A DNA stretch of 64,000 nucleotides from Haloprofundus salilacus (lineage in GTDB: Archaea; Halobacteriota; Halobacteria; Halobacteriales; Haloferacaceae), in contig NZ_CP083723.1 of NCBI RefSeq assembly GCF_020150815.1, positions 1 through 64,000 of the forward strand, written 5' to 3'. A program made the translations under genes and the position numbers. Shown here one piece after another: positions 52,659 through 64,000 of the stretch. The notes under the pieces are model-generated. The model had not been told where the DNA came from. It saw nothing but the letters and a program-made list of their open reading frames with translations, and ran no database searches. Positions within the stretch are counted from its first letter, which is position 1. The number at the start of each line of letters is the position of its first letter.

Positions 52659-54028
52659 CGTGCTCCCTCCAGAAAGCGCGTCGGGTCGCCGGCGTCCGAC
52701 GTCAGTCGACCGTCTTCCATGAGACCCATCGACTCCAGCCACGCCTCGAACTCCGGGGCTGGACTCATATCGAAGATGTCCCACAGCGCTGCCGCGTCGT
52801 GGTAGCTGTTCGACTGGTAGTTGAGCATCGTATCGTCGCCCATCGGGACGGTGATGAAGTAGTTCGACCCGGCGGCGGTGAGCAAGACGGCGAGGTTCTC
52901 GATGTCGTTCTGGTCGGCCTGGATGTGGTTCGTGTAACAGGCGTCGATGCCCATTGGGAGCCCGGTTAGTTTGCCCATGAAGACGTCTTCGAGCCCGGCT
53001 CTGATGACCTGCCGGCCGTCGTAGAGGTACTCGGGGCCGATGAAGCCGACGACCGTGTTTACCAAGAACGGGTCGTAGCGTTTGGCGAGCCCGTAACACC
53101 GTGCTTCCAACGTGACCTGGTCGACGTCCGCGTGCGCGTCGCTCGACAGCTCCGACCCCTGGCCGGTCTCGAAGTACATGACGTTCGGCCCCGAGGCGGT
53201 GCAGTGTTCGTCCCCAAATTCGTACGCCTCGTCGAGCAGGTCGACGTCAATGCCGAAACTCTCGTTGCCGGCTTCGGTCCCCGCAAGGCTCTGAAACAGC
53301 AAGTCGGCGCTCGCGCCCGCGCGGACAGCGTCCATCTGCGTGGTGAGATGCGAGAGCACGCAGTTCTGCGTCGGGATGTCCCAGGTCTCGATGAACTCCT
53401 TCGTCACGTCGAGCAGTCGCTTCGTCCGTTCCGTGGTGTCCTCGACCGGGTTGATGCCGATGACGGCGTCGCCGACGCCGTAGGACAGTCCCTCTCGGAT
53501 CGAGTGGCGGATGTTCTCGACGTCGTCGCTCGGATCGTTCGGCTGGAGTCGAAACGAGAGCGTTCCCTCCGCGCCGACGGTGTTGTTACACCGAGCAGTG
53601 ACCTCCATTTTGGACGCCGCCTGGACCAGGTCCATGTTCGACATGAGCTTCGCGACGGCGGCAATCATCTCGCTCGTCAGCCCCGGTCGAACCTCGGCGA
53701 TCTCGGCCTCGCGCGTCCCTTCGTCGGCGAGGAACTCGCGGAACTCCGAGACAGTCCATTCCCGTATTCGCTCGTAGGCGGCCTCGTCGACGCCGTCCTG
53801 GATGACTCGCGTGACCTCGTCTTCGTCGTACGGCACCGCGGGCGACTGTCGGAGTGTCTCAAGCGTGAGCCCGCCGAGTGCGTCCTTCGCGGCTATGCGT
53901 TCGGCTTCCGAGTCGGCGGCGAGCCCCGCGAGTTCGTCGCCGGATTTCTCCTCGTTCGCTTTCGCCAGTACCTCTCGAACCGAGTCGAACGTGTGCGTCG
54001 ACCCGGTGATGCGTGATGCGATGTTCAT
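52655..54028 (-). CDS. eutB: Ethanolamine ammonia-lyase large subunit
   Basis: Catalytic TIM-barrel subunit of EutBC. The 457 aa sequence has the family blocks VREVLAKANEEKSGDELAGL near residue 17, ARCNNTVGAEGTLSFRLQPN near 148, and GINPVEDTTERTKRLLDVTK near 193. TQNCVLSHLTTQMDAVRAGA and MGIDACYTNHIQADQNDIEN follow. It lacks nothing expected. It leads the operon eutBCA, with 500-700 bp of low-coding DNA upstream that should hold the promoter. No ethanolamine permease, shell protein or aldehyde dehydrogenase is in the window. Confidence 0.95.
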   Translation of the reverse strand: MNIASRITGSTHTFDSVREVLAKANEEKSGDELAGLAADSEAERIAAKDALGGLTLETLRQSPAVPYDEDEVTRVIQDGVDEAAYERIREWTVSEFREFLADEGTREAEIAEVRPGLTSEMIAAVAKLMSNMDLVQAASKMEVTARCNNTVGAEGTLSFRLQPNDPSDDVENIRHSIREGLSYGVGDAVIGINPVEDTTERTKRLLDVTKEFIETWDIPTQNCVLSHLTTQMDAVRAGASADLLFQSLAGTEAGNESFGIDVDLLDEAYEFGDEHCTASGPNVMYFETGQGSELSSDAHADVDQVTLEARCYGLAKRYDPFLVNTVVGFIGPEYLYDGRQVIRAGLEDVFMGKLTGLPMGIDACYTNHIQADQNDIENLAVLLTAAGSNYFITVPMGDDTMLNYQSNSYHDAAALWDIFDMSPAPEFEAWLESMGLMEDGRLTSDAGDPTRFLEGAR

Positions 54029-55259
54029 CTGTATCTCCTGTGGCGTGGTCAGCTTCCGTCACGGCGCTCGCGATATCGGTGCGTACCGACCGTCTCCGTT
54101 TCCGACTCTCTTCGGCAATCCGCGACTGCCGACGCGCCCACGTCACCGAACCGTCAGTTCGAGCGCGCCACACATGCTAACTCCTGACACAACCTAGTTC
54201 CTCAACATGGTGCGACTTGAGTGTTGTTCGAATCGACCTATTCGTTCGTCGAAGCCGTCATGCGGGTGGCTGTCGTCACGAGGAGTCCAGAATATATGAC
54301 CCGCCTCGGGGTTCGTCTCGACCTATCGCGCGCCGACCTCCGCAATAGATGACCAAACGGACGGCGGGGAAACGTGTCGGCATCGGAATCGACCTCCATA
54401 CGCCCGTATCGAGACGGATGCTACGGTCTCGAACGCTTGTATTACCAGTTGTTGCGTGCCGAAGACAGCGTCATGTGGGTGCCAGCGGATGACGCTGTCT
54501 CGCGACGAGAGCGATCTGTGCAGGTGGGTGGTGGGGGGAGAGGGTGTCGGGGGGAATCTCCGCAATCGGCTCACCACGCCGGTCGATGCTGAATCTTCCC
54601 TCAAGTCTGGCGGTTCGTCTCGTCACAGCGACCCCGCGTTTTCGCCAACACTCTCGTCACGTGTGAACGTGAAGACCTCTGCGACATTGCGGTGAAGCAG
54701 GGTCGCCAAGTTCTACTACTCGACACAACACAATAAAATTATTCCAAATTAAGAGTTACAATCTCTAGATATTGGAAGTGTTTTTGTCACGATCGAGATG
54801 CCAGCGCTCTCGATTCACGAGCCGGATTGCGGAGGTCCGATCTCGTCGAACAAGAAGTTGCTTTGCTGCGAAACGACGTCACTTTGGGATGAGTAATGCT
54901 TCCTTAGCGGTTTGACTCCCGAGAATCCAAAACGAAGGGGTTGACACACCACTGTGAGGTCTTTGTAGGGACTGACACACCACCACTCGGACCGTGTTGG
55001 AGCGAGTTCTAGGGTTCGACTCGCCATCATATGATACTGCATATTGGAGAATGAATATAATGCCTAATATTATTGGTGAGAGTGAGTATCTCGCATGGAT
55101 ACGGTACTCGTGGGGTCTCCTTCCGCGTTATCGTCGATTCGAGCGTCGGATTGAAGACATAAAGACACGTAATTCCGCTGGAAATCTCTTGACCAATCCA
55201 CTAACACTGGGAACCTCCGTATTTTAGCGACTCGTAGCCACATACTGAGTGCTCAGTAA
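54029..55259. other. 1.2 kb low-coding region upstream of eutB
   Basis: No gene can be called. The segment 54180-54320 and the AT-rich 54715-54800 block (ending GTTTTTGTC) look regulatory; the former should hold the eut promoter. The direct repeat TGACACACCAC occurs twice, near 54941 and 54971, beside a short frame that may be a transposase remnant. A 58-codon frame starting near 55053 (MNIMPNIIGESEYLAWIRYS) has no known relatives. From here rightward the base composition falls and coding is sparse, marking the left border of the array. Confidence 0.5.
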
Positions 55260-55285
55260 CCGATACGCACGCTGTATTCAGCACA
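55260..55285 (+). repeat. Array repeat R0, left arm only
   Basis: CCGATACGCACGC followed by TGTATTCAGCAC matches the left arm. The centre and right arm are missing; about 50 bp further on lies a solo IS605-type right end, and a matching right arm appears 1.2 kb away (R0-right). Confidence 0.65.
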
Positions 55286-55334
55286 GCCTCGTCCAATTAT
55301 GAAGCCTCCGGCGACGAGACTTCCCCTGTAGGAG

Positions 55335-55366
55335 GCCCTGTCCTTTAGGGTGGGCAAGGATGTCAC
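55335..55366 (+). repeat. Solo right end of an IS200/IS605-type element
   Basis: GCCC, imperfect palindrome with TTTA loop, GGGC, then AAGGATGTCAC. The layout matches the right end of the TnpB element at 42595 (GTAGG-GGA, hairpin, GGATGTCA). No tnpB lies upstream, so it is a remnant or a deletion product. Confidence 0.55.
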
Positions 55367-56477
55367 TCTCCCTCAAGAATTGTTCTCAAAATTGGAGATC
55401 GCGTGTTTCTAGCTCTCTAGTCGTCACTTTTACGCCTCACTCGCCGTCTCCCACGGCTCATAATCATTCTCGTCCACCGCAAGAGGACAGACGGTAGTGA
55501 CGAGAATCCTCACTAGGAGGTAGTGAGATGGAGAAGTGAAACGGGACTCAAATTGGTTCAAATGCCTGAGAGTGGTATATAGAGATGGTATAAGCAGTGT
55601 TTGCTAGGGGAACAAAGAGGAGGGGGCTCTGGGGAGTCAATCCAATAGTCATTCTCAAATCGTCATAATCGGTTGCCGTCTATCGGTTTTGTATCTTGGA
55701 GGGTGTGGTTTGTTCGAGAGTGTAGTATTAGGAATGCGAGAATTGGCGTGAGAGCCCCCCCAAAACGGAGATTTGCGTCGAACCGAATTCATCTCGTCTC
55801 GGTCATCGCTGGCTTCATAATCTCCTCTCGAACGGAGGATAGACGGTCTCCTGCGGGTTTGTAGGCCGATTATGAAACTGGGATGAGCCCGTCTCACTGT
55901 TCGAGGGGTAGTGTGGGCTGTTTTGACTGGGTTTTGTCGACTATGACTCTAGTCGGTCAAGTCCGTTAATTCGTTCACGCGTTTTGCCTGCACCAGACTT
56001 AACTCGTGTACTGACTCCAAGCATCAATACTCACCGTCGAAGTCGGACGAGTAACTCAATTTGAGCATCGATGCGGTCTACAGACCGTGGAATCCGGACA
56101 TCGGATTTCATTTCGGCTGTGGGAGCTTTCGAGGCTCCAACCTGCACTCGGAGGGAACCAGCAACACGCTGGGGAACTCTCGGTTCCTCCCTCATCGGAC
56201 TGTGGCTTCATTGGGCTGTGGTCTGACCAATGAGGCCTCATCGAATTCAGTGTTATCGCCGTGTGAACAACACCGTGTTGTCCACCATCGCTTGGTATTC
56301 GGGGACGTACTGCCACTCACGCGCTGGTCGGACCTCTGTCGGTTGTCCGCCACCTCTTATGATTCGGTGACGGCATTTCACCGAATCCATAGCAGACTCT
56401 GTTATCCAGACCACAACAACACGATACCGGTGTGACTCGACGGCTCTGTTGAAATCCTCAGAACGTGACAAGAATAA
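55367..56477. other. 1.1 kb of low-coding DNA between R0 arms
   Basis: No gene can be supported. Short frames at 55655-55897 (minus), 56061-56435 (plus) and 56253-56471 (minus) are Arg/Ser-rich with no motif. The end GGCTCTGTTGAAATCCTCAG (56439-56458) resembles the terminus of haloarchaeal insertion sequences, from memory. The segment is best read as an insertion that split repeat R0. Confidence 0.45.
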
Positions 56478-56512
56478 CGTGGCTGAATACAGAGGGTGTA
56501 TTCAGCGGGATG
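56478..56512 (+). repeat. Array repeat R0, right arm only
   Basis: GTGGCTGAATACAGAGGG followed by TGTATTCAGCGGG. The 11-mer GCTGAATACAG is the exact reverse complement of CTGTATTCAGC in R0-left, so the two arms probably belonged to one repeat. The array methyltransferase gene ends inside this arm (stop at 56502-56504). Confidence 0.65.
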
Positions 56513-57326
56513 CTCTGAGGGAAAACACGAACGGGAGGTCGTGGTCAAGTTCGGGAAGAACATAGCGACCGTCCTCTCGCTCTTCCATCGCGTCTACGGC
56601 CTTAAACGTTGACCACGGATACTCGTGGAGAAATTCGAGACGGAACCCCGACCCACACAGTGCCGATACGATTTCTCCGAACGAATGAGACCACCCGTGA
56701 GTTGGTCCGTGTTCGAGTTCCCCTGGTTCGACTCCAGCATAGCTCCCCGTTTCAGTCGCGTCGTAACTAATGCGCTCGCGGAAATAAGGATAGCTGATCT
56801 TCAGATTCTCCGCCGTCGAATCTTCGCTGAGCGTATTCGTAAATGGGTGGTGGTCAACGAGATAGAACGTTCCCCCTTCACGAACGAATTGCACCATGAT
56901 ATCAGCCCACTCTTCGAGATCAGGGAGCCAGAACAGTACTCCGAACGACATGTACACGATATCGAATTCTTCGTCTTCGATAGGTGAGTCATCGGTAAGC
57001 TCATACACATCTGACTGCACGAAGCGTGCCTGATTTTCCAGCCCAGCCTCGTCAGCCAACTCGCGGGCTGCTTCGACGGCTTCGGTCGAGATATCCACTC
57101 CAGTTACCTCGGCTCCGCGACGCGCCCACGATAACGTATCGAGGCCGAAGTGACATTGCAAATGAAGCAGCGATCTGCCCTCAACAGTACCAAGTTCTTC
57201 AGGTTCTATCGGATCGAGCGTGGAGTCCCCATCGAGGAATCCCTCGACATCGTAGTAGTCCGTCTCTGGATGGAGCTCTGCAAGCTCCTCCCAGTGTTTG
57301 CGGTTGTCTTCGATGAATTCCCCCAT
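56502..57326 (-). CDS. Cassette gene: SAM-dependent methyltransferase
   Basis: A 274 aa class I methyltransferase from the ATG at 57326 (MGEFIEDNRKHWEELAELHP). Motif I is LLHLQCHFGLDTLSWARRGA near residue 58, then VTGVDIST, and motif IV FDIVYMSFGVLFWLPDLEEW near 132. Substrate unknown. The gene reads leftward in the array, between R0-right and R1. Its stop lies in the edge of R0-right, so the interval is nearly filled by the gene. GC content and codon bias are lower than in core haloarchaeal genes. Confidence 0.85.
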   Translation of the reverse strand: MGEFIEDNRKHWEELAELHPETDYYDVEGFLDGDSTLDPIEPEELGTVEGRSLLHLQCHFGLDTLSWARRGAEVTGVDISTEAVEAARELADEAGLENQARFVQSDVYELTDDSPIEDEEFDIVYMSFGVLFWLPDLEEWADIMVQFVREGGTFYLVDHHPFTNTLSEDSTAENLKISYPYFRERISYDATETGSYAGVEPGELEHGPTHGWSHSFGEIVSALCGSGFRLEFLHEYPWSTFKAVDAMEEREDGRYVLPELDHDLPFVFSLRASR

Positions 57327-57365
57327 AATGAGGTGTAACTGAAACACAGTATAGCTCTTCTGCGG

Positions 57366-57454
57366 ACTATACGCCGTGTATTCAGCAGTCGGTGAGCGAA
57401 CTCCTCAACCTCTGTCAATAACGGAGTGCGAGATACAGAGGATGCGTGCAGCAG
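57366..57454 (+). repeat. Array repeat R1
   Basis: Type A. Left arm near ACTATACGCCGTGTATTCAG, centre with GAGCGAACTCCTCAAC, then CTGTCAATAACGGAG, right arm TGCGAGATACAGAGGATG. The centre is nearly identical to those of R6, R7 and R8. Confidence 0.75.
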
Positions 57455-57613
57455 GTGTTATCTACAGGTGAAATTGACCTGCTTACATAGCGGCGGTCCC
57501 ACCCGGGGTCGTGGCTGCCTTCGAGAAGGTGCGCTACGCAGATCAATACCGTCTGATCAGTTTCCGGCCCTTTAGTCGTCCGTATTGAATAGGCGCGACA
57601 ACCAAGAGATTCC

Positions 57614-58168
57614 ATGGCCAACCTCATCTACTTCATCAACTCATCACTCGACGGCTACATCGCCGACGAGAACGGCAACTTCGACTGGACAGAGCCATCT
57701 GAGGACGCGCATACCTTCTTCAACGACTTCCAACGATCGGTCGGTACCTCCCTGTGCGGCCGTCGCATGTACGAGACTATGCGGGTGTGGGACACCTTTC
57801 TCCTCGACGACCTACCCGAGGTACAACGCGAGTTCGCCGAGGCGTGGGGGGATACCAACAAGGTCGTCTACTCAACCACCCTGGACTCCGTGCCGGAACC
57901 GCGGACCCGCCTGGAGCAGACGTTCGACCCCGAAGAGGTACAGACCATGAAAAACCAAGCCGACCGCGACCTGTCTATCGGTGGCGCCAGCCTCGCTGCC
58001 GAGGCAATCCGCGCAGGTCTGGTCGACAGGTGCGTACTGCGCTTGGTCCCGACGATCGTCGGTGAGGGAACCCGAGCCCTCCCCGACGCAACGCGGGTCG
58101 ACCTCGCTCTCAACACGACGCGCCGTTTCGACGACGGTTCCGTGCTAGTCGACTACAGCATCCAATGA
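57614..58168 (+). CDS. Cassette gene: dihydrofolate reductase family protein
   Basis: A 184 aa protein of the RibD C-terminal/DHFR family: MANLIYFINSSLDGYIADEN at the N-terminus, GTSLCGRRMYETMRVWDT near residue 44, VYSTTLDSVPEPRT, LSIGGASLAAEAIRAGLVDR near 119, and VPTIVGEGTRALPD. This family reduces folate-like or flavin-precursor substrates; the exact reaction is not known for these stand-alone members, which are often found on mobile DNA. It reads rightward in the interval R1-R2, with about 160 bp upstream for a promoter. Confidence 0.88.
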   Translation: MANLIYFINSSLDGYIADENGNFDWTEPSEDAHTFFNDFQRSVGTSLCGRRMYETMRVWDTFLLDDLPEVQREFAEAWGDTNKVVYSTTLDSVPEPRTRLEQTFDPEEVQTMKNQADRDLSIGGASLAAEAIRAGLVDRCVLRLVPTIVGEGTRALPDATRVDLALNTTRRFDDGSVLVDYSIQ

Positions 58169-58283
58169 CCGAACCGACCCCGAAACAGTCACCTGAATAG
58201 ACAATCAGTCAGATTAACGGAACGAATCACCCTCACCTGTAAACTACGCGGGTCTACTACGGGCCAGTTCGCTACTATCGGCC

Positions 58284-58379
58284 GTGCAAGATACGCGCAC
58301 TGTATGCAGCACGGCGATTGATACCTCCTCAACCACTGTCAGTAACGGAGTGCAAGATACAGAGGATGTATTCAGAGCG
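58284..58379 (+). repeat. Array repeat R2
   Basis: Type A. Left arm GTGCAAGATACGCGC then ACTGTATGCAGCAC, centre with CTCCTCAACCACTGTCAG, right arm AGTGCAAGATACAGAGGATG then TATTCAG. The left arm differs from R1 mainly by TATGCAGC instead of TATTCAGC. Confidence 0.75.
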
Positions 58380-58453
58380 TCTCTCGTGTTCATGCAAAAA
58401 CTCGCAGATAAACGCTAAAGAAAACTTATTAGTGCCGAAATGTTTGAACAAAT

Positions 58454-58759
58454 ATGGACGGAGATGGCGGGGGAATGGATGGTGGCGAAATGGGGAGTAT
58501 GCATAGTATTGGAATGGAGGATGTAAATGGGGATATTGAAGCTAGAATGGAGAGGACAGACGGAGATCCTGGGATTTCAGCCCTCCAGTCGATGGGATAC
58601 ATAGATAATGGAGATGGAATAGGTCAGAGAGAGGGAGATTCTACGGATTCTGGGCATTCAGCTCTCCAGTCAATCTTAATAACAACAGTGGTAGTATTCT
58701 TCGTGGGTTCTCTCCTGTACTTCCTCATAACGGGTATATTGGGTATGCTTGGTGTGTAA
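58454..58759 (+). CDS. Cassette gene: small protein with C-terminal membrane helix
   Basis: A 101 aa protein, Gly/Met/Asp-rich at the N-terminus (MDGDGGGMDGGEMGSMHSIG), with two copies of an ISALQSM/HSALQSI element near residues 41 and 69. One C-terminal helix (ILITTVVVFFVGSLLYFLIT) follows. Codon use is clearly AT-richer than the core genome. No family recognised. It reads rightward in the interval R2-R3. It could be a tail-anchored regulator, a toxin or a phage-type small protein; there is no evidence to choose. Confidence 0.62.
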   Translation: MDGDGGGMDGGEMGSMHSIGMEDVNGDIEARMERTDGDPGISALQSMGYIDNGDGIGQREGDSTDSGHSALQSILITTVVVFFVGSLLYFLITGILGMLGV

Positions 58760-58868
58760 CTGTAGTGAGCCGTCCCACTATGATATCTGTCTGAAGAATG
58801 CGCTTTCAACAATACTCCTAATTTCAATAACTCCACCCCCCAACTCCACTTCCGACGGAATTTTGTGG

Positions 58869-58959
58869 GAAATACGCGCTCTCTATTCAGCACGTACTGT
58901 ACGAATTGACAGTGTCCAGTCAGAAGCCGCGTGCTGAATAGAGAGGGTGTATTCCGCAC
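58869..58959 (+). repeat. Array repeat R3 (16-bp perfect inverted arms)
   Basis: Type B. The left arm CTCTCTATTCAGCACG (58879-58894) and the right arm CGTGCTGAATAGAGAG (58930-58945) are exact reverse complements. Outside them lie AATAC-GCG on the left and GGG-TGTATT on the right, so the pairing resumes beyond a 3-nt mismatch. The 35-nt centre includes GTGTCCAGTCAGAAG. Confidence 0.8.
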
Positions 58960-59016
58960 TGTATCATCCAATTCATCACCCGCTAAAAGACTCGTCACCG
59001 AGATCAAGGATCTATC

Positions 59017-59388
59017 TCACGGGGATTTTCCGAGCCGAGAGACGACAAAATCGTTGGTCTGTGAGGGTTGTTCAAGAGCCTCGCTAACAGAGAGGATCAC
59101 GTCAGCCTCTGCTGACAGTCCCGAGATACGGACTTGCTCGTTAGTGCGGTCGTATTCGACGTGTGTGGCATCCTCAAGTTTCGGAAGATGAGAGTGTTCT
59201 AGCGAGAGAATTATTTTTTGTAGCTCGTCGTCGGGGATAGTGTCACACGACCCGTTCTCTTCCCACTCATAGATTTTCTCTGCGAGTTCGTCGATTGATA
59301 CCGGCTTTTCCGCACCCTTCAGATAGTACAATGCAAACCGTCGCCGTTCCGTGCTGAATAGCGAAAAGACCTCGTCTAGCAATTCCAT
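59017..59388 (-). CDS. Cassette gene: DUF7344-type winged-helix protein
   Basis: A 123 aa protein, probably DNA-binding. LFSTERRRFALYYLKGAEKP near residue 10 is the first helix pair, SIDELAEKIYEWEENG the next, and LQKIILSLEHSHLPKLEDAT near 55 is the family signature also seen at 32533-32925. It reads leftward in the interval R3-R4. Its GC is lower than the 32.5 kb copy, so it is unlikely to be a recent duplicate. It might regulate other cassettes; no evidence beyond location. Confidence 0.83.
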   Translation of the reverse strand: MELLDEVFSLFSTERRRFALYYLKGAEKPVSIDELAEKIYEWEENGSCDTIPDDELQKIILSLEHSHLPKLEDATHVEYDRTNEQVRISGLSAEADVILSVSEALEQPSQTNDFVVSRLGKSP

Positions 59389-59549
59389 ACCACCCCCAAG
59401 TCAGTACCCGGGATAAGAATTGCTCTCACTTGGTTCATTGATCGTAGCGCGTGTAGACTCACTCGCTACGGCGAGTAACTGTGCCGTATATCCATCTTCC
59501 CTAGGTTAGGCAATCGTGGCAACTCAGGGTAAGGTGTGTTTCCTACCCT

Positions 59550-59591
59550 TGACTGTGCAAGATTCGCGCTCTGTATGCAGCACGCCCGTTG
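59550..59591 (+). repeat. Array repeat R4, left arm only
   Basis: TGACTGTGCAAGATTCGCGC then TCTGTATGCAGCACG. No right arm follows within 100 bp; the downstream sequence (ACTGACTAAGGGTTTCC) does not match. Either half the site was lost or a half site can stand alone. Confidence 0.65.
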
Positions 59592-59675
59592 AAAGCTATC
59601 ACTGACTAAGGGTTTCCAACGAAGCCAAATTCCCCGGTAAGGCTATGTCGGACGTCCAATAACAGAGCAAGAACG

Positions 59676-59897
59676 ATGTCTATCGGCGAAGAGAGCAAGG
59701 AAGCCTCCCTCCCCTTGACCGCAGTTGCTGTGGTCCTGTCCTCAATTGTTGCAGCAGCATGGTTTTGGACCATGACTGAACCGCCGTCTGGAAACGAGCC
59801 TGAACTCATCATACTTGCAGTAGCAATACTCACGGTCATCTTGGTTCTCGTTCTCACGGTACAGCAATACATCAGCAAAAGAATAGGCAGGGAGTAA
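59676..59897 (+). CDS. Cassette gene: small two-helix membrane protein
   Basis: A 73 aa protein, MSIGEESKEASLPLTAVAVV at the N-terminus, with two helices (LTAVAVVLSSIVAAAWFW and LIILAVAILTVILVLVLTV) and a basic C-terminus QQYISKRIGRE. Function unknown. It reads rightward in the interval R4-R5 and fills most of it. Confidence 0.65.
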   Translation: MSIGEESKEASLPLTAVAVVLSSIVAAAWFWTMTEPPSGNEPELIILAVAILTVILVLVLTVQQYISKRIGRE

Positions 59898-59960
59898 GTC
59901 ACCCATCAGGCTCCTTCAATCAGTAGATACACGATATTCTGGATCTCACTTTCTGATTCG

Positions 59961-60055
59961 AATCATACGCGCCTTCTATTCAGCACGGTCACAACGAACT
60001 ACCCAGTCCCTGTCAGAAAGAGCGTGCGAGATACAGAGGATGGATTGATCAACCG
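59961..60055 (+). repeat. Array repeat R5 (mosaic of types A and B)
   Basis: The left arm ATACGCGCCTTCTATTCAGC and the centre with GTCCCTGTCAGAAAG are of type B, like R3 and R9. The right arm GTGCGAGATACAGAGGATGG is type A. The two arms therefore pair poorly. A mosaic of this kind is expected if repeats recombine with each other. Confidence 0.75.
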
Positions 60056-60084
60056 GGCGACCCTGTTGGTATCGAGCCGAGTAG

Positions 60085-60894
60085 TTACGACCCCGCCGTC
60101 GCGTTCGCCGCCCACTCCGGTTTCTCGACGTCGGTGCTCCCAACGTCGGACAGGGTGTACGAGTGCGTAATCCTCCGGGTGTGGTAGTCGACCCAGACGA
60201 ATTCGTACTCATAGTGGCGGATGACGCCGTCTTCGTCGAGCAGGAGTGTCGCTGAGAACTCCTCGTACCACGAACTCGCGTTCTCGCCCCCCGCCCACGA
60301 GTCGGCCAGCGCGTCGACACCGGTGGCCTCGTAACGCATCACCGGAACGCCCTGGAACGTCTCGACGCCTTCGCGCTCGTAAGTGGCGTCAATCGCAGCA
60401 AACGCGTGCTGGCTTCCGCTGTCGTTGTTGAACCATCCACGCCAGAGATACCGCTCGCCCGACTCGTTGAACACCGGGGCGGGGGTAGGACTCACTCTCG
60501 ACCCGTTCTCCGTCCGGGACAGGGCGTACTCCGTGCTCCCGTTCGAGTAGGTGGTGCCGTTCACCGAAAAGTAGCCGTTGGTATGTGCGAGGTACTGTGA
60601 GGCGCCGGGCTCGACGAGAAAATGGCCCGTGTCGTTCATGTACCTGAAGTCCTTCTCTGAAGGGTGGAAAACGCGTTCCTTCCGGACTTTCTCGGTTGAG
60701 AGCGTGAAACTCGTGTTCGCCAGCTCGGTTGCGTGTCTATCGAACACCGACTGGTCGATGGCCGACGCGTTCGGGAAATCGGCGGGGGACGCGCCGGGAG
60801 ACGGCCTGTTCCCGCCTGTGCCTGGAAGTCCAGTACATCCCGCGAAGACCAGGAGGGCGACCATGGCGATCGCTGAGAGCGGAGACGCACGCAT
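60085..60894 (-). CDS. Cassette gene: secreted lipoprotein (DUF7537-like)
   Basis: A 269 aa protein with a signal peptide and lipobox: MRASPLSAIAMVALLVFAGC, with the lipid-modified Cys at position 20. The mature part has Gly/Pro/Ser-rich spacing, then a beta-rich domain (NGYFSVNGTTYSNGSTEYAL, RHYEYEFVWVDYHTRRITHS) with many N-x-S/T sites. I connect it with the haloarchaeal lipoprotein family DUF7537, from memory. Its codon use is haloarchaeal-typical (GC-rich), unlike some neighbours. It reads leftward in R5-R6. Confidence 0.78.
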   Translation of the reverse strand: MRASPLSAIAMVALLVFAGCTGLPGTGGNRPSPGASPADFPNASAIDQSVFDRHATELANTSFTLSTEKVRKERVFHPSEKDFRYMNDTGHFLVEPGASQYLAHTNGYFSVNGTTYSNGSTEYALSRTENGSRVSPTPAPVFNESGERYLWRGWFNNDSGSQHAFAAIDATYEREGVETFQGVPVMRYEATGVDALADSWAGGENASSWYEEFSATLLLDEDGVIRHYEYEFVWVDYHTRRITHSYTLSDVGSTDVEKPEWAANATAGS

Positions 60895-61011
60895 AGGCTA
60901 CTGTCCAATCAGCTCACAGTTAACGCTGGTGGGTACGTCCACCTCTCGGACACAGGGTGATACCGCCCCTAACCCGGTGTTGTGACTTTCAGGAGAATCA
61001 GTCCCAAACCG

Positions 61012-61105
61012 ATTGCAAGATACGCGCACTGTATTCAGCAGGCGGTGAGCGAACTCCTCAACGGCTGTCAGTAACGGAATGCGAGATACAGAGGATGTAG
61101 TCCGC
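61012..61105 (+). repeat. Array repeat R6
   Basis: Type A. ATTGCAAGATACGCGCAC then TGTATTCAGCAG, centre GAGCGAACTCCTCAACGGC, CTGTCAGTAACGGAATG, right arm GCGAGATACAGAGGATGTAG. The right edge lacks the final TATTCAG. Confidence 0.78.
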
Positions 61106-61216
61106 AAACGGTCTTCGTTTGTTGCATTTGGTCAGCGATGAAATAGGCGATAGTGCAGTGAAGAACCTGTTGTTGAACACGACAAGATATTTGTGGATTA
61201 GACTGAACTACATTTT

Positions 61217-61468
61217 ATGCCTGAAGACTCCGCTGTAGACTCGTTTCGGTACGCACTCAATCCCAAGTTGGTGAAGCTTTACGTAGTGACTGTACTGGGA
61301 TGGCTCATTATTGAGTTCTCACGGGAAGGCTTCTTTATCATTCCAAATCCAGTACTGGAAACTCTCGTCTCCTTAGTAGCGGCTCTTTTCGGTCTTACGC
61401 TCCTTCTCGGAGGTTTTGTTGGCGTTGTTCATCGAGTGCTGTCTGACTCGATGCAGGCCGTGCGCTAA
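61217..61468 (+). CDS. Cassette gene: small membrane protein
   Basis: An 83 aa protein with two helices (LYVVTVLGWLIIEFSREG and LVSLVAALFGLTLLLGGFVG) and a basic tail. AT-rich codon use. It reads rightward, and its stop codon is only 3 bp before repeat R7 begins, so the gene fits the interval with almost no spare DNA on its 3' side. Function unknown. Confidence 0.65.
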   Translation: MPEDSAVDSFRYALNPKLVKLYVVTVLGWLIIEFSREGFFIIPNPVLETLVSLVAALFGLTLLLGGFVGVVHRVLSDSMQAVR

Positions 61469-61470
61469 CG

Positions 61471-61562
61471 GCACATTCGCGCTGTGTATTCAGCAGTCGA
61501 TGAGCGAACTCCTCAAATACTGTCAGTAACGGAGTGCGAGATACAGAGGGTGTATTCAGAAC
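61471..61562 (+). repeat. Array repeat R7
   Basis: Type A, one of the most complete copies: GCACATTCGCGCTG then TGTATTCAGCAG, TCGATGAGCGAACTCCTCAA, CTGTCAGTAACGGAG, right arm TGCGAGATACAGAGGG then TGTATTCAGA. It differs from R8 in the first 75 nt by only a few bases. Confidence 0.8.
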
Positions 61563-61637
61563 GGAGGTAGGGTTGATTTCATCCATAGTACATCTGTCAT
61601 CGAAAGAATTGTCGTCTTTGAGTTAGAATCTCGACAC

Positions 61638-62309
61638 ATGCCCTCTTTCGGTTCCCAAACCCGTCGCATTGCTACTGCTTTCCTCGGCTTCCTTTTCCTC
61701 CTCTCAGCCGTCTTCGCACCATTTGGCACTATCGCTTGGACTTACGAGTACAACGTAGACCAAGTCAATCCCGATGACCCCCAACTCGCAGGGATGCTGG
61801 GGTGGGCCGAAGGAACCTCCTCCTGTTATTATGAGTCTGATGAATGCGAACTCGCTTATGTTGTCAAAGACGACAGCCCCCGTATCGTCTCTGACACAAC
61901 ATACCGCGCCGCCCGTGGGTTTGGTCCCGAGAACCGACTCATTATATTCAGTGATTCAAACACAGCCTTCTATCAGCCGAATATTACCCACTACGAGAAC
62001 GATACCACGAGAGTCAGCCTTAGACAGGTTTCGAACGCCACCGCACTCGAACTGGTGTCAACCCCCTTCAGGAACTCCCCAAGAGGTGTCCGCCGAGTTG
62101 TCGAAAAGGGAACCGTCCGCACAAACCGCCCACTGACCGGCTTTGCCTACTGGGACGAAACTAAGGCGATTATCGCTCACGACGGTGCATACTACCGACA
62201 GGGGGGCGTCAAATACCGAGGCACGCAGAAGGGCGTTGCCGAGTTCTTCCGACTTGTTGCTCTTGTTGTTGGAGCAGTCCTTTGCTTTCACACTGGCCGC
62301 ATGGAGTGA
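61638..62309 (+). CDS. Cassette gene: two-helix membrane protein with extracellular domain
   Basis: A 223 aa protein with a helix near residues 10-34 (TAFLGFLFLLSAVFAPFGTI) and another near the C-terminus (FFRLVALVVGAVLCFHTG), separated by a hydrophilic extracellular-type domain. The domain has a Cys pair (SSCYYESDECELAYV) and several N-x-S/T sites. Function unknown; it could be a surface sensor or a receptor. It reads rightward in R7-R8, with AT-richer codon use than core genes. Confidence 0.7.
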   Translation: MPSFGSQTRRIATAFLGFLFLLSAVFAPFGTIAWTYEYNVDQVNPDDPQLAGMLGWAEGTSSCYYESDECELAYVVKDDSPRIVSDTTYRAARGFGPENRLIIFSDSNTAFYQPNITHYENDTTRVSLRQVSNATALELVSTPFRNSPRGVRRVVEKGTVRTNRPLTGFAYWDETKAIIAHDGAYYRQGGVKYRGTQKGVAEFFRLVALVVGAVLCFHTGRME

Positions 62310-62345
62310 CGCAATAGTCTCTCAGAATCAGGAGAGCATCTCGTG

Positions 62346-62437
62346 CTGCATTCGCGCTGTGTATTCAGCAGTCGATGAGCGAACTCCTCAACTTCTGTCA
62401 ATAACGGAGTGCGAGATACAGAGCTTCTCTGCAGCAA
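62346..62437 (+). repeat. Array repeat R8
   Basis: Type A, near-identical to R7 at its left: CTGCATTCGCGCTGTG then TATTCAGCAGTCGATGAGCG, AACTCCTCAAC, CTGTCAATAACGGAGTGC, GAGATACAGAG. It then departs to CTTCTCTGCAGCAAG, so the last 15 nt are replaced. Confidence 0.8.
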
Positions 62438-62496
62438 GAAGCGTCACTAGGCTATAAAACCGAGAACATGAGTATTGTAATCTCGTCCCAGAACCG

Positions 62497-63495
62497 TTAG
62501 TCCGAGACCAGCCTCGAACGGGTGATGTGGTGAAGTGTCTCCAGTCCGTCGTGAAACGCCATCCAGACTGCGACGGCGATGCCGAAGAGTAAAATCGAGT
62601 CCTCCAGGGGTGCCAGTACCGGACCCGAGGTAGCCCAAAGGTCAATGGGGCGAAACGGCGGGATGAGCGCAGGCAGAAGTCTCACCGTCGACTGCACGCC
62701 GAAGACGACGGCAATCGCTTTTAGGAAGTCTCGCAACCGGAGTCGGGGACCGGTGAGGAATATGACTCCCAGGAGGAACGAGGCCGTGAACAGCCATTCA
62801 ACCGGGAGTTCTGTCAGCGGAACCCCGACTCTCAAACCTGAGCCCTGCAAGAACACTCTGGTAGAGGATCCGCCTGTCTCCGGGCGTGTGACTGATTGGA
62901 GGAACGTCCCAACCCCGTGGACCAGCACCAATCCGCCTGCACCGACAATCGCGGCAAGTCCTGTCGCGATGAGCCCGCGCTGTAGCGAAAGGGTAGGCCC
63001 AATATCTTCATGGGCAACTATGGCGAAAAGCGGGTGCTGGTCCACGTTTCCGACAGCCGAGACCAGTCGTTCGTACCCACCGTGGTAGGCGAACCACACC
63101 GCCGTTGCGACCGCAAGAAATGTCAGAACCCGACCGAGTGGAACAGCGAATATAGTAAGTGGAAGCTCCCCCGGGAGGTCGGACAGCAACGTTCGGCCGA
63201 CGATGAACAGGAGGTCAACCACATATACGAGGACGGCACCGCCGACGACTGCACGCCGAGACGAGCCAGCGACGACCAGTAGGACAGCCAGCAGAAATGG
63301 TGCGTACGCCGCGGTCGCCAAGGACCATCCGGTCATTACGCCAAGGATGATTTTACCAGCTCCAGCGGTTGATCTGTCCAGCAGAAGCAGGCGACTCCAG
63401 CCGAACGTGACGACGAGGACGGCGATCAGTCCGCTCGCCAGAAGGGCGGCACCGAGTAGTCTCTGACTGTCAAGTTCGCATTCAGGGACTGACAT
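62497..63495 (-). CDS. Cassette gene: multi-pass membrane protein
   Basis: A 332 aa protein with about eight helices (LLGAALLASGLIAVLVVTFG, WSLATAAYAPFLLAVLLVVA, AVVGGAVLVYVVDLLFIVG and others). The architecture of two four-helix halves is visible. No catalytic motif is recognisable, and the family is unknown. It reads leftward in R8-R9 and fills the interval. Codon use is intermediate. Confidence 0.72.
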   Translation of the reverse strand: MSVPECELDSQRLLGAALLASGLIAVLVVTFGWSRLLLLDRSTAGAGKIILGVMTGWSLATAAYAPFLLAVLLVVAGSSRRAVVGGAVLVYVVDLLFIVGRTLLSDLPGELPLTIFAVPLGRVLTFLAVATAVWFAYHGGYERLVSAVGNVDQHPLFAIVAHEDIGPTLSLQRGLIATGLAAIVGAGGLVLVHGVGTFLQSVTRPETGGSSTRVFLQGSGLRVGVPLTELPVEWLFTASFLLGVIFLTGPRLRLRDFLKAIAVVFGVQSTVRLLPALIPPFRPIDLWATSGPVLAPLEDSILLFGIAVAVWMAFHDGLETLHHITRSRLVSD

Positions 63496-63565
63496 GCGAA
63501 TACAAATCTAACAGCACCCAGATAAACATTCTGCGGGCGCTTTCAGACAAAGCTGACGGATAGAC

Positions 63566-63662
63566 GTGCTACATTCGCGCTGTGCATTCAGCATACCCGC
63601 AGAAACCTACTCAGCCCCTGTCAGAAGTTGCGTGCTGAATAGAGAGGGTGCATCTCTCACGG
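63566..63662 (+). repeat. Array repeat R9
   Basis: Left arm GTGCTACATTCGCGCTGTG then CATTCAGCA; centre of type B (CCCCTGTCAGAAG); right arm GTGCTGAATAGAGAGGGTGC. The inner left arm CTGTGCATTCAGCA matches the right-arm complement at all but 3 positions. Confidence 0.78.
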
Positions 63663-63723
63663 AGACCTCGTTTATTTCGGCCCACCAACGTTGAACTAAC
63701 CGCTCAGTAGGTGTGCTTATCTC

Positions 63724-63951
63724 TCAATTCTCCTCTCGTTGACGAGATATTCGTTGAAGAGCGTCAGCAATTCCTTCTACTGCTGCGACGAACCGCCATA
63801 AGAGAAAGAGTGACCCAAACAGGAGACCAATCCAGACTCCGAATAGAATTTGCTGTGCAATAACTACCGAGTATCCGAGTATGAGTACGTAAAGGAGACC
63901 AATTCCGACAATCCATGTACGAGGAATTGATGGCGGTGACCAACTTGACAT
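63724..63951 (-). CDS. Cassette gene: small two-helix membrane protein
   Basis: A 75 aa protein with two helices (WIVGIGLLYVLILGYSVVIA and FGVWIGLLFGSLFLLWRFVA) and a short basic, coiled C-terminus (EGIADALQRISRQREEN). Function unknown. It reads leftward from the right edge toward R9. AT-rich sequence with GTTTAAAGC and TTAAAAACATG upstream probably contains its promoter. The next repeat, if any, lies outside the window. Confidence 0.65.
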   Translation of the reverse strand: MSSWSPPSIPRTWIVGIGLLYVLILGYSVVIAQQILFGVWIGLLFGSLFLLWRFVAAVEGIADALQRISRQREEN

Positions 63952-64000
63952 AGTCCATGTTTAAAGCAATTGGTTAAAAACATGTCTACTCTGCTGGGTT

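Follow-up and report, generated by a model that had tools for sequence, protein, structure and literature searches.

In integrons, the attC site moves together with its upstream gene and the crossover takes place in the R' box only. Integrons were also described in archaea, in a paper that makes no mention of Halobacteria (PMC9668308). In the dif (pdif) modules of Acinetobacter, which depend on XerC/XerD, sites with the same spacer recombine with each other (PMC13141974, PMC6449649), and two incompatible spacers are a known rule for these modules (PMC13141974). The pdif sites are furthermore targeted by insertion sequences (PMC10132070). For Haloquadratum, MITEs, PATEs and SMR-A repeats were reported; SMR-A elements of ~110 bp insert in near-terminal palindromes, and PATEs as well as IS605 elements possess neither terminal inverted repeats (TIRs) nor target duplications (PMC3119063). 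The gene-cassette arrays of Haloprofundus salilacus analyzed here are probably transposon-bounded arrays that are reshuffled at two orthogonal crossover sites, comparable to dif modules, although they belong to archaea and their sites are unrelated.

The H. salilacus genome (3.73 Mb) consists of two contigs and the window, i.e., the whole stretch of 64,000 nucleotides analyzed, is the start of contig C1 (Table 1). As judged from sequence comparison, the repeat R3 is a linker module of a gene-cassette array, its arms being the ends of a 66-bp linker set between two gene cassettes. The 95-nt repeat contains two outer 27-bp dyads, TGnnnnATAC-7-GTATnnnnCA, 66 bp apart, with the centers GCGCNCT (left-type) and AGAGGRT (right-type), which are distinct and essentially unmixed apart from a few degenerate cases. 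A gene cassette begins at a right-type dyad center (ATAC-AGAG^GRT-GTAT) and stops at a left-type dyad center (ATAC-GCGC^NCT-GTAT). As runs open with a right half-site and close with a left half-site (profile of 36 copies), the 95-nt repeat is a composite. Each array opens with an end module, after which gene cassettes alternate with 66-bp linkers, the first and the last unit being a cassette, and closes with a further end module; adjacent sites are co-oriented in 106 of 108 cases. The cassettes run on beyond the window, to ~92.3 kb of the contig. Within 54001-64000 of the window, the G+C content changes from ~65% to mostly 49-57% at the start of the cassettes.

Table 1. Features of the cassette region in the window, and IS5-type elements within dyad centers at other loci.
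Feature	Position	Strand	Basis
Lone half site of the left type, left over from another cassette end	55254-55289	+	
Left end module: terminal inverted repeat GGCTCTGTTGAAATCCTCA (56442-56460), then left half of first right-type dyad	56442-56494	+	
First right-type dyad of the array	56481-56507		
Gene cassette 1: class I methyltransferase, 56502-57347 (- strand)	56495-57374	+	Pfam
66-bp linker 1, left-type dyad on one side, right-type on the other	57375-57440	+	
Gene cassette 2: RibD_C-domain reductase, 57614-58168 (+)	57441-58298	+	Pfam
66-bp linker 2	58299-58364	+	
Gene cassette 3: small ORF, 58454-58759 (+), family-less, hydrophobic C-terminal stretch	58365-58879	+	
R3 left-type dyad; crossover inferred between 58879 and 58880	58866-58892	+	
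66-bp linker 3 = repeat R3	58880-58945	+	
R3 right-type dyad, crossover mapped	58932-58958	+	
Gene cassette 4: DUF7344 protein, 59017-59388 (- strand)	58946-59569	+	Pfam
Right end module; degenerate terminal inverted repeat, ends AACGAAGCC	59570-59626	+	
66-bp linker, next cassette run	59973-60038	+	
66-bp linker	61028-61093	+	
66-bp linker	61483-61548	+	
66-bp linker	62358-62423	+	
66-bp linker	63581-63646	+	
IS5-type elements in dyad centers	L259 3478-4457; L130 7504-8999; L096 365-1194; also L084, L187, L031		

A strict two-arm pattern was found at 25 places in the H. salilacus genome, 25 of 25 on the + strand, with runs at 57-92 kb and 767-781 kb of contig C1 and at 114-129 kb of contig C2. 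Of 148 genomes from the family, 23 contain it, and the pattern occurs in public genomes of many genera of Halobacteria and in 27 haloarchaeal plasmid records; in the sampled sequence there are ~200 sites from some 25 genera. The pattern was not found in phage records, nor the strict pattern in viral contigs. One single-cassette element, which has a terminal repeat at either end and was found via its end sequence, lies on a viral contig from IMG/VR (L260 9928-10843) and is a possible vehicle for spread. The cassettes (n = 182) have a median length of 726 bp and carry, in either orientation, genes for methyltransferases, a RibD_C reductase, DUF7344 and HalOD1 regulators, lipoproteins, a CNNM transporter, RidA and an HNH-like protein. 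The sampled cassettes contain accessory genes and one TnpB and no recombinase. This TnpB (OrfB_IS605, Cas12f1-like) is cassette cargo just outside the window, at 67303-68637 of contig C1 (L026 17303-18637). At 2937777-2938272 of contig C1, a linker site directly adjoins a gene for a Y1 transposase that contains a stop codon.

In an all-against-all comparison, gene cassettes of identical type were found to adjoin different linkers at other loci and in other species and genera. The breakpoints were determined from pairs with the same cassette and unlike linkers. In the left dyad, identity above background stops between columns 20 and 21 (GCGC^N; mean of 14 pairs) and in the right dyad it starts between columns 82 and 87 (ATAC..AGAG^G; 12 pairs). 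Arm variants on the gene side go with the gene, and arm variants on the linker side go with the linker. Homology thus switches at the dyad centers, and therefore gene cassettes and 66-bp linkers are separate modules joined there, which have been re-assorted at these points; a junction in mid-linker was ruled out, as the breakpoints fall at the dyad centers. The crossover could be mapped at the right-type dyad of R3 because the downstream DUF7344 cassette shows 92% identity to a Haloprofundus salinisoli cassette behind a different linker. A cassette homologous to the methyltransferase cassette is present in a relative (G010), and across genera one cassette is shared by Haloprofundus and Halorubrum distributum with 93% identity. 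Homologous cassettes kept their polarity in 23 cases and were inverted in 3, and the next neighbor was kept in 1 of 9.

The main rival explanation is that cassettes are exchanged by homologous or microhomology recombination in shared flanks without a dedicated recombinase, the dyads being kept for another reason, e.g., transposase binding. Haloarchaea recombine readily, the dyads are the main sequence common to unlike cassettes and linkers so that exchange is expected there anyway, the mapped crossover intervals alone are compatible with homologous exchange in conserved dyads, and no recombinase was found near the arrays at the loci tested. However, the switch points bunch at the dyad centers instead of being spread over 27 bp, gene-side and linker-side arm variants are cleanly separated, the stretch common to unlike linkers is very short and the linker is constant at 66 bp, which makes homologous exchange rather unlikely. 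It is improbable that the linker is itself a mobile element of 66 bp whose ends are inverted and which enters inter-cassette palindromes or takes their place, in the manner of the SMR-A repeats of Haloquadratum. Its inverted ends and the lack of a target duplication would fit such an element, but the required empty targets, i.e., linker-less junctions between cassettes, were not clearly seen, and linkers of several sequence classes share one fixed length.

The preliminary description interpreted R3 as a recombination site used as a folded single strand. The perfect 16-bp inverted arms that it reported were confirmed, as 58879-58894 (CTCTCTATTCAGCACG) and 58930-58945 are exact reverse complements, and so was the outer pairing of AATAC (58871-58875) with GTATT (58949-58953), beyond which GTG and CAC pair as well. 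The unpaired letters between the boxes are GCG (58876-58878) against GGT (58946-58948), where GGG had been given on the right. As single-stranded DNA, R3 folds with -27.1 kcal/mol (z = -7.2) and none of 200 shuffles is equally stable, so that a chance match of the arms fails as an explanation. The other copies were said to keep this layout, which is true of position, as 165 of the 201 copies have a linker of exactly 66 bp and 196 have one within 1 bp of this length, but not of pairing. Among five window copies folded, R3 is the only one with a good fold, whereas those at 57360, 61012, 62343 and 63566 behave approximately like shuffled DNA (z -0.6 to -1.8). The arms of 36 copies show no covariation, with 13 both-sided pairs vs. 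11.5 in shuffles and 66.4% vs. 66.0% paired, a result that the preliminary description had itself named as speaking against its reading; within the dyads, pairing counts over 36 copies likewise revealed none. An Rfam search of the window gave no match. As the pairing lacks covariation and only R3 folds well, a folded attC-like site is unsupported; what is kept in dyads and hairpin is the sequence, as in protein binding sites. The earlier reading is thus half right: crossovers map to the R3-type repeat, which supports a recombination site, but not one that acts as folded single strand like attC.

That R3 is an attC-type site folded for an integron integrase is accordingly very improbable, and as a class-wide mechanism this is largely refuted. 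The two-box layout, the cassette array and the very good fold of R3 are in its favor, whereas the linker is not tied to the upstream gene and crossovers lie at both outer dyads. The H. salilacus genome encodes six tyrosine recombinases (PF00589), none of them in the array of the window, and no integron integrase was found with the NCBIfam model, for which three of the six proteins were scored and none came near the 265-bit cut-off.

The cassette runs are bounded by inverted repeats (GGCTCTGTTGAAA...), with the termini GGCTCTGTTGAAAYCCTCA ... TGAGGGTTTCAACAGAGCC. For 9 of the 18 paired ends, the 8-bp flanks agree in six or more of the eight positions, compared with a mean of 0.68 and a maximum of 4 in 5000 shuffles, a target duplication being absent in half of the TIR pairs; one duplication is an exact 8-bp case (L059) and one is of 9 bp. 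Single-cassette elements of 0.4-1.7 kb also exist, which carry cargo and no transposase. Whole arrays or single cassettes are bounded by TIRs and 8-bp duplications, the pattern that a DDE transposase leaves on transposition. Terminal inverted repeats, target duplications of fixed length and the absence of a transposase are the features of MITEs and other non-autonomous DDE transposons, and the bounded elements look like non-autonomous, cargo-carrying transposons, of which the arrays are the multi-cassette form. An empty site, i.e., a copy with joined ends, was not found in 148 genomes, and the terminal repeats were therefore taken as element ends rather than as an integration target (attB-like hairpin). 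The 8-bp target duplication, a TIR opening with GG and an internal CTGTT motif are shared with the IS6 family (PMC7986276), but no matching transposase was found. IS6-type transposases were rejected as mobilizers, as the H. salilacus genome encodes none and the PF13610 copies of relatives have other termini, GGCACTGTCTAGTTA or GGTCGCGTTAAGTTA. An autonomous parent sharing the TIR was found neither in the H. salilacus genome nor among the PF13610 copies of 22 relatives. IS200/IS605 or PATE ends, in which a Y1 transposase recognizes subterminal hairpins and insertion is head-to-tail, were suggested by the half sites bounding the arrays and by a genome that has two genes for Y1 transposases, of which one contains a stop, as well as 24 TnpB genes and one TnpB in the array, but are scarcely credible for elements with TIRs and 8-bp duplications.

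Site-specific recombination with two incompatible spacers is the simplest reading. It accounts for the directionality, for modules that alternate and for the lack of joints between two cassettes or between two linkers. The dyad arms would be bound by a site-specific recombinase, which is most likely of the tyrosine/Xer type and possibly a host XerA-like enzyme. Exchange of like with like (right with right, left with left) would lead to excision, insertion or swapping of cassettes and would force head-to-tail arrays, while a transposase given in trans would move the bounded arrays. A recurrent recombinase neighbor was not found beside the arrays at the loci tested. The best match to the XerA model, a protein of 350 aa, reaches 113 bits with a model cut-off of 220 and is a candidate only. 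A lone conserved dif-like site was not recognized among the matches listed in five genomes.

With Acinetobacter dif modules the arrays share gene modules with inversely oriented short dyad sites, the alternation of two module types and accessory cargo, and the crossovers apparently also lie at site centers and involve compatible spacers only. IS5-type elements (TIR like GGGCCTTGTTTAGACGC) were observed inside dyad centers with short center duplications, as if targeting the site, and these parallel IS1202-family elements at pdif sites. In contrast to dif sites, which are of 28 bp (11-6-11), the haloarchaeal dyads are of 27 bp (10-7-10) and differ in sequence, one of the module types is a non-coding linker with a fixed length of 66 bp, the two spacer classes accompany a head-to-tail order, the arrays end in TIRs with 8-bp target duplications and the recombinase is putative only. 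Integrons, including those of archaea (PMC9668308), are likewise directional arrays of short cassettes with short repeats and accessory cargo that move between species and genera. The haloarchaeal arrays differ from them in that no integron integrase was found and folded sites are not conserved, and by the separate linker module and genes on both strands. MITEs, PATEs and SMR-A elements of Haloquadratum (PMC3119063) are also haloarchaeal and transposase-free with near-terminal palindromes, SMR-A inserting inside palindromes, but the cassette elements carry cargo, combine TIRs, target duplications and dyads, and form head-to-tail arrays.

The cassette arrays look like an undescribed archaeal gene-shuffling system. 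More tentatively, they could represent a platform for gene capture in haloarchaea that differs from both integrons and dif modules. Each cassette would have two orthogonal crossover sites in double-stranded form and a fixed 66-bp spacer module, and the TIR-bounded transposable arrays would be served by a recombinase and a transposase acting in trans. No description of such a system was found in the papers searched (haloarchaeal integrons, cassettes, Haloprofundus), a search that covered subscription literature poorly, and this silence is weak evidence of novelty. Accessory genes are widely exchanged among haloarchaea. The arrays constitute a concrete haloarchaeal cassette system, in which the crossover points are mapped, two distinct centers provide a rule of direction and the package is transposon-like, and by which the route of accessory-gene flow in haloarchaea becomes directly testable. 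They would be an archaeal counterpart, perhaps of independent origin, of the integrons and dif modules of bacteria.
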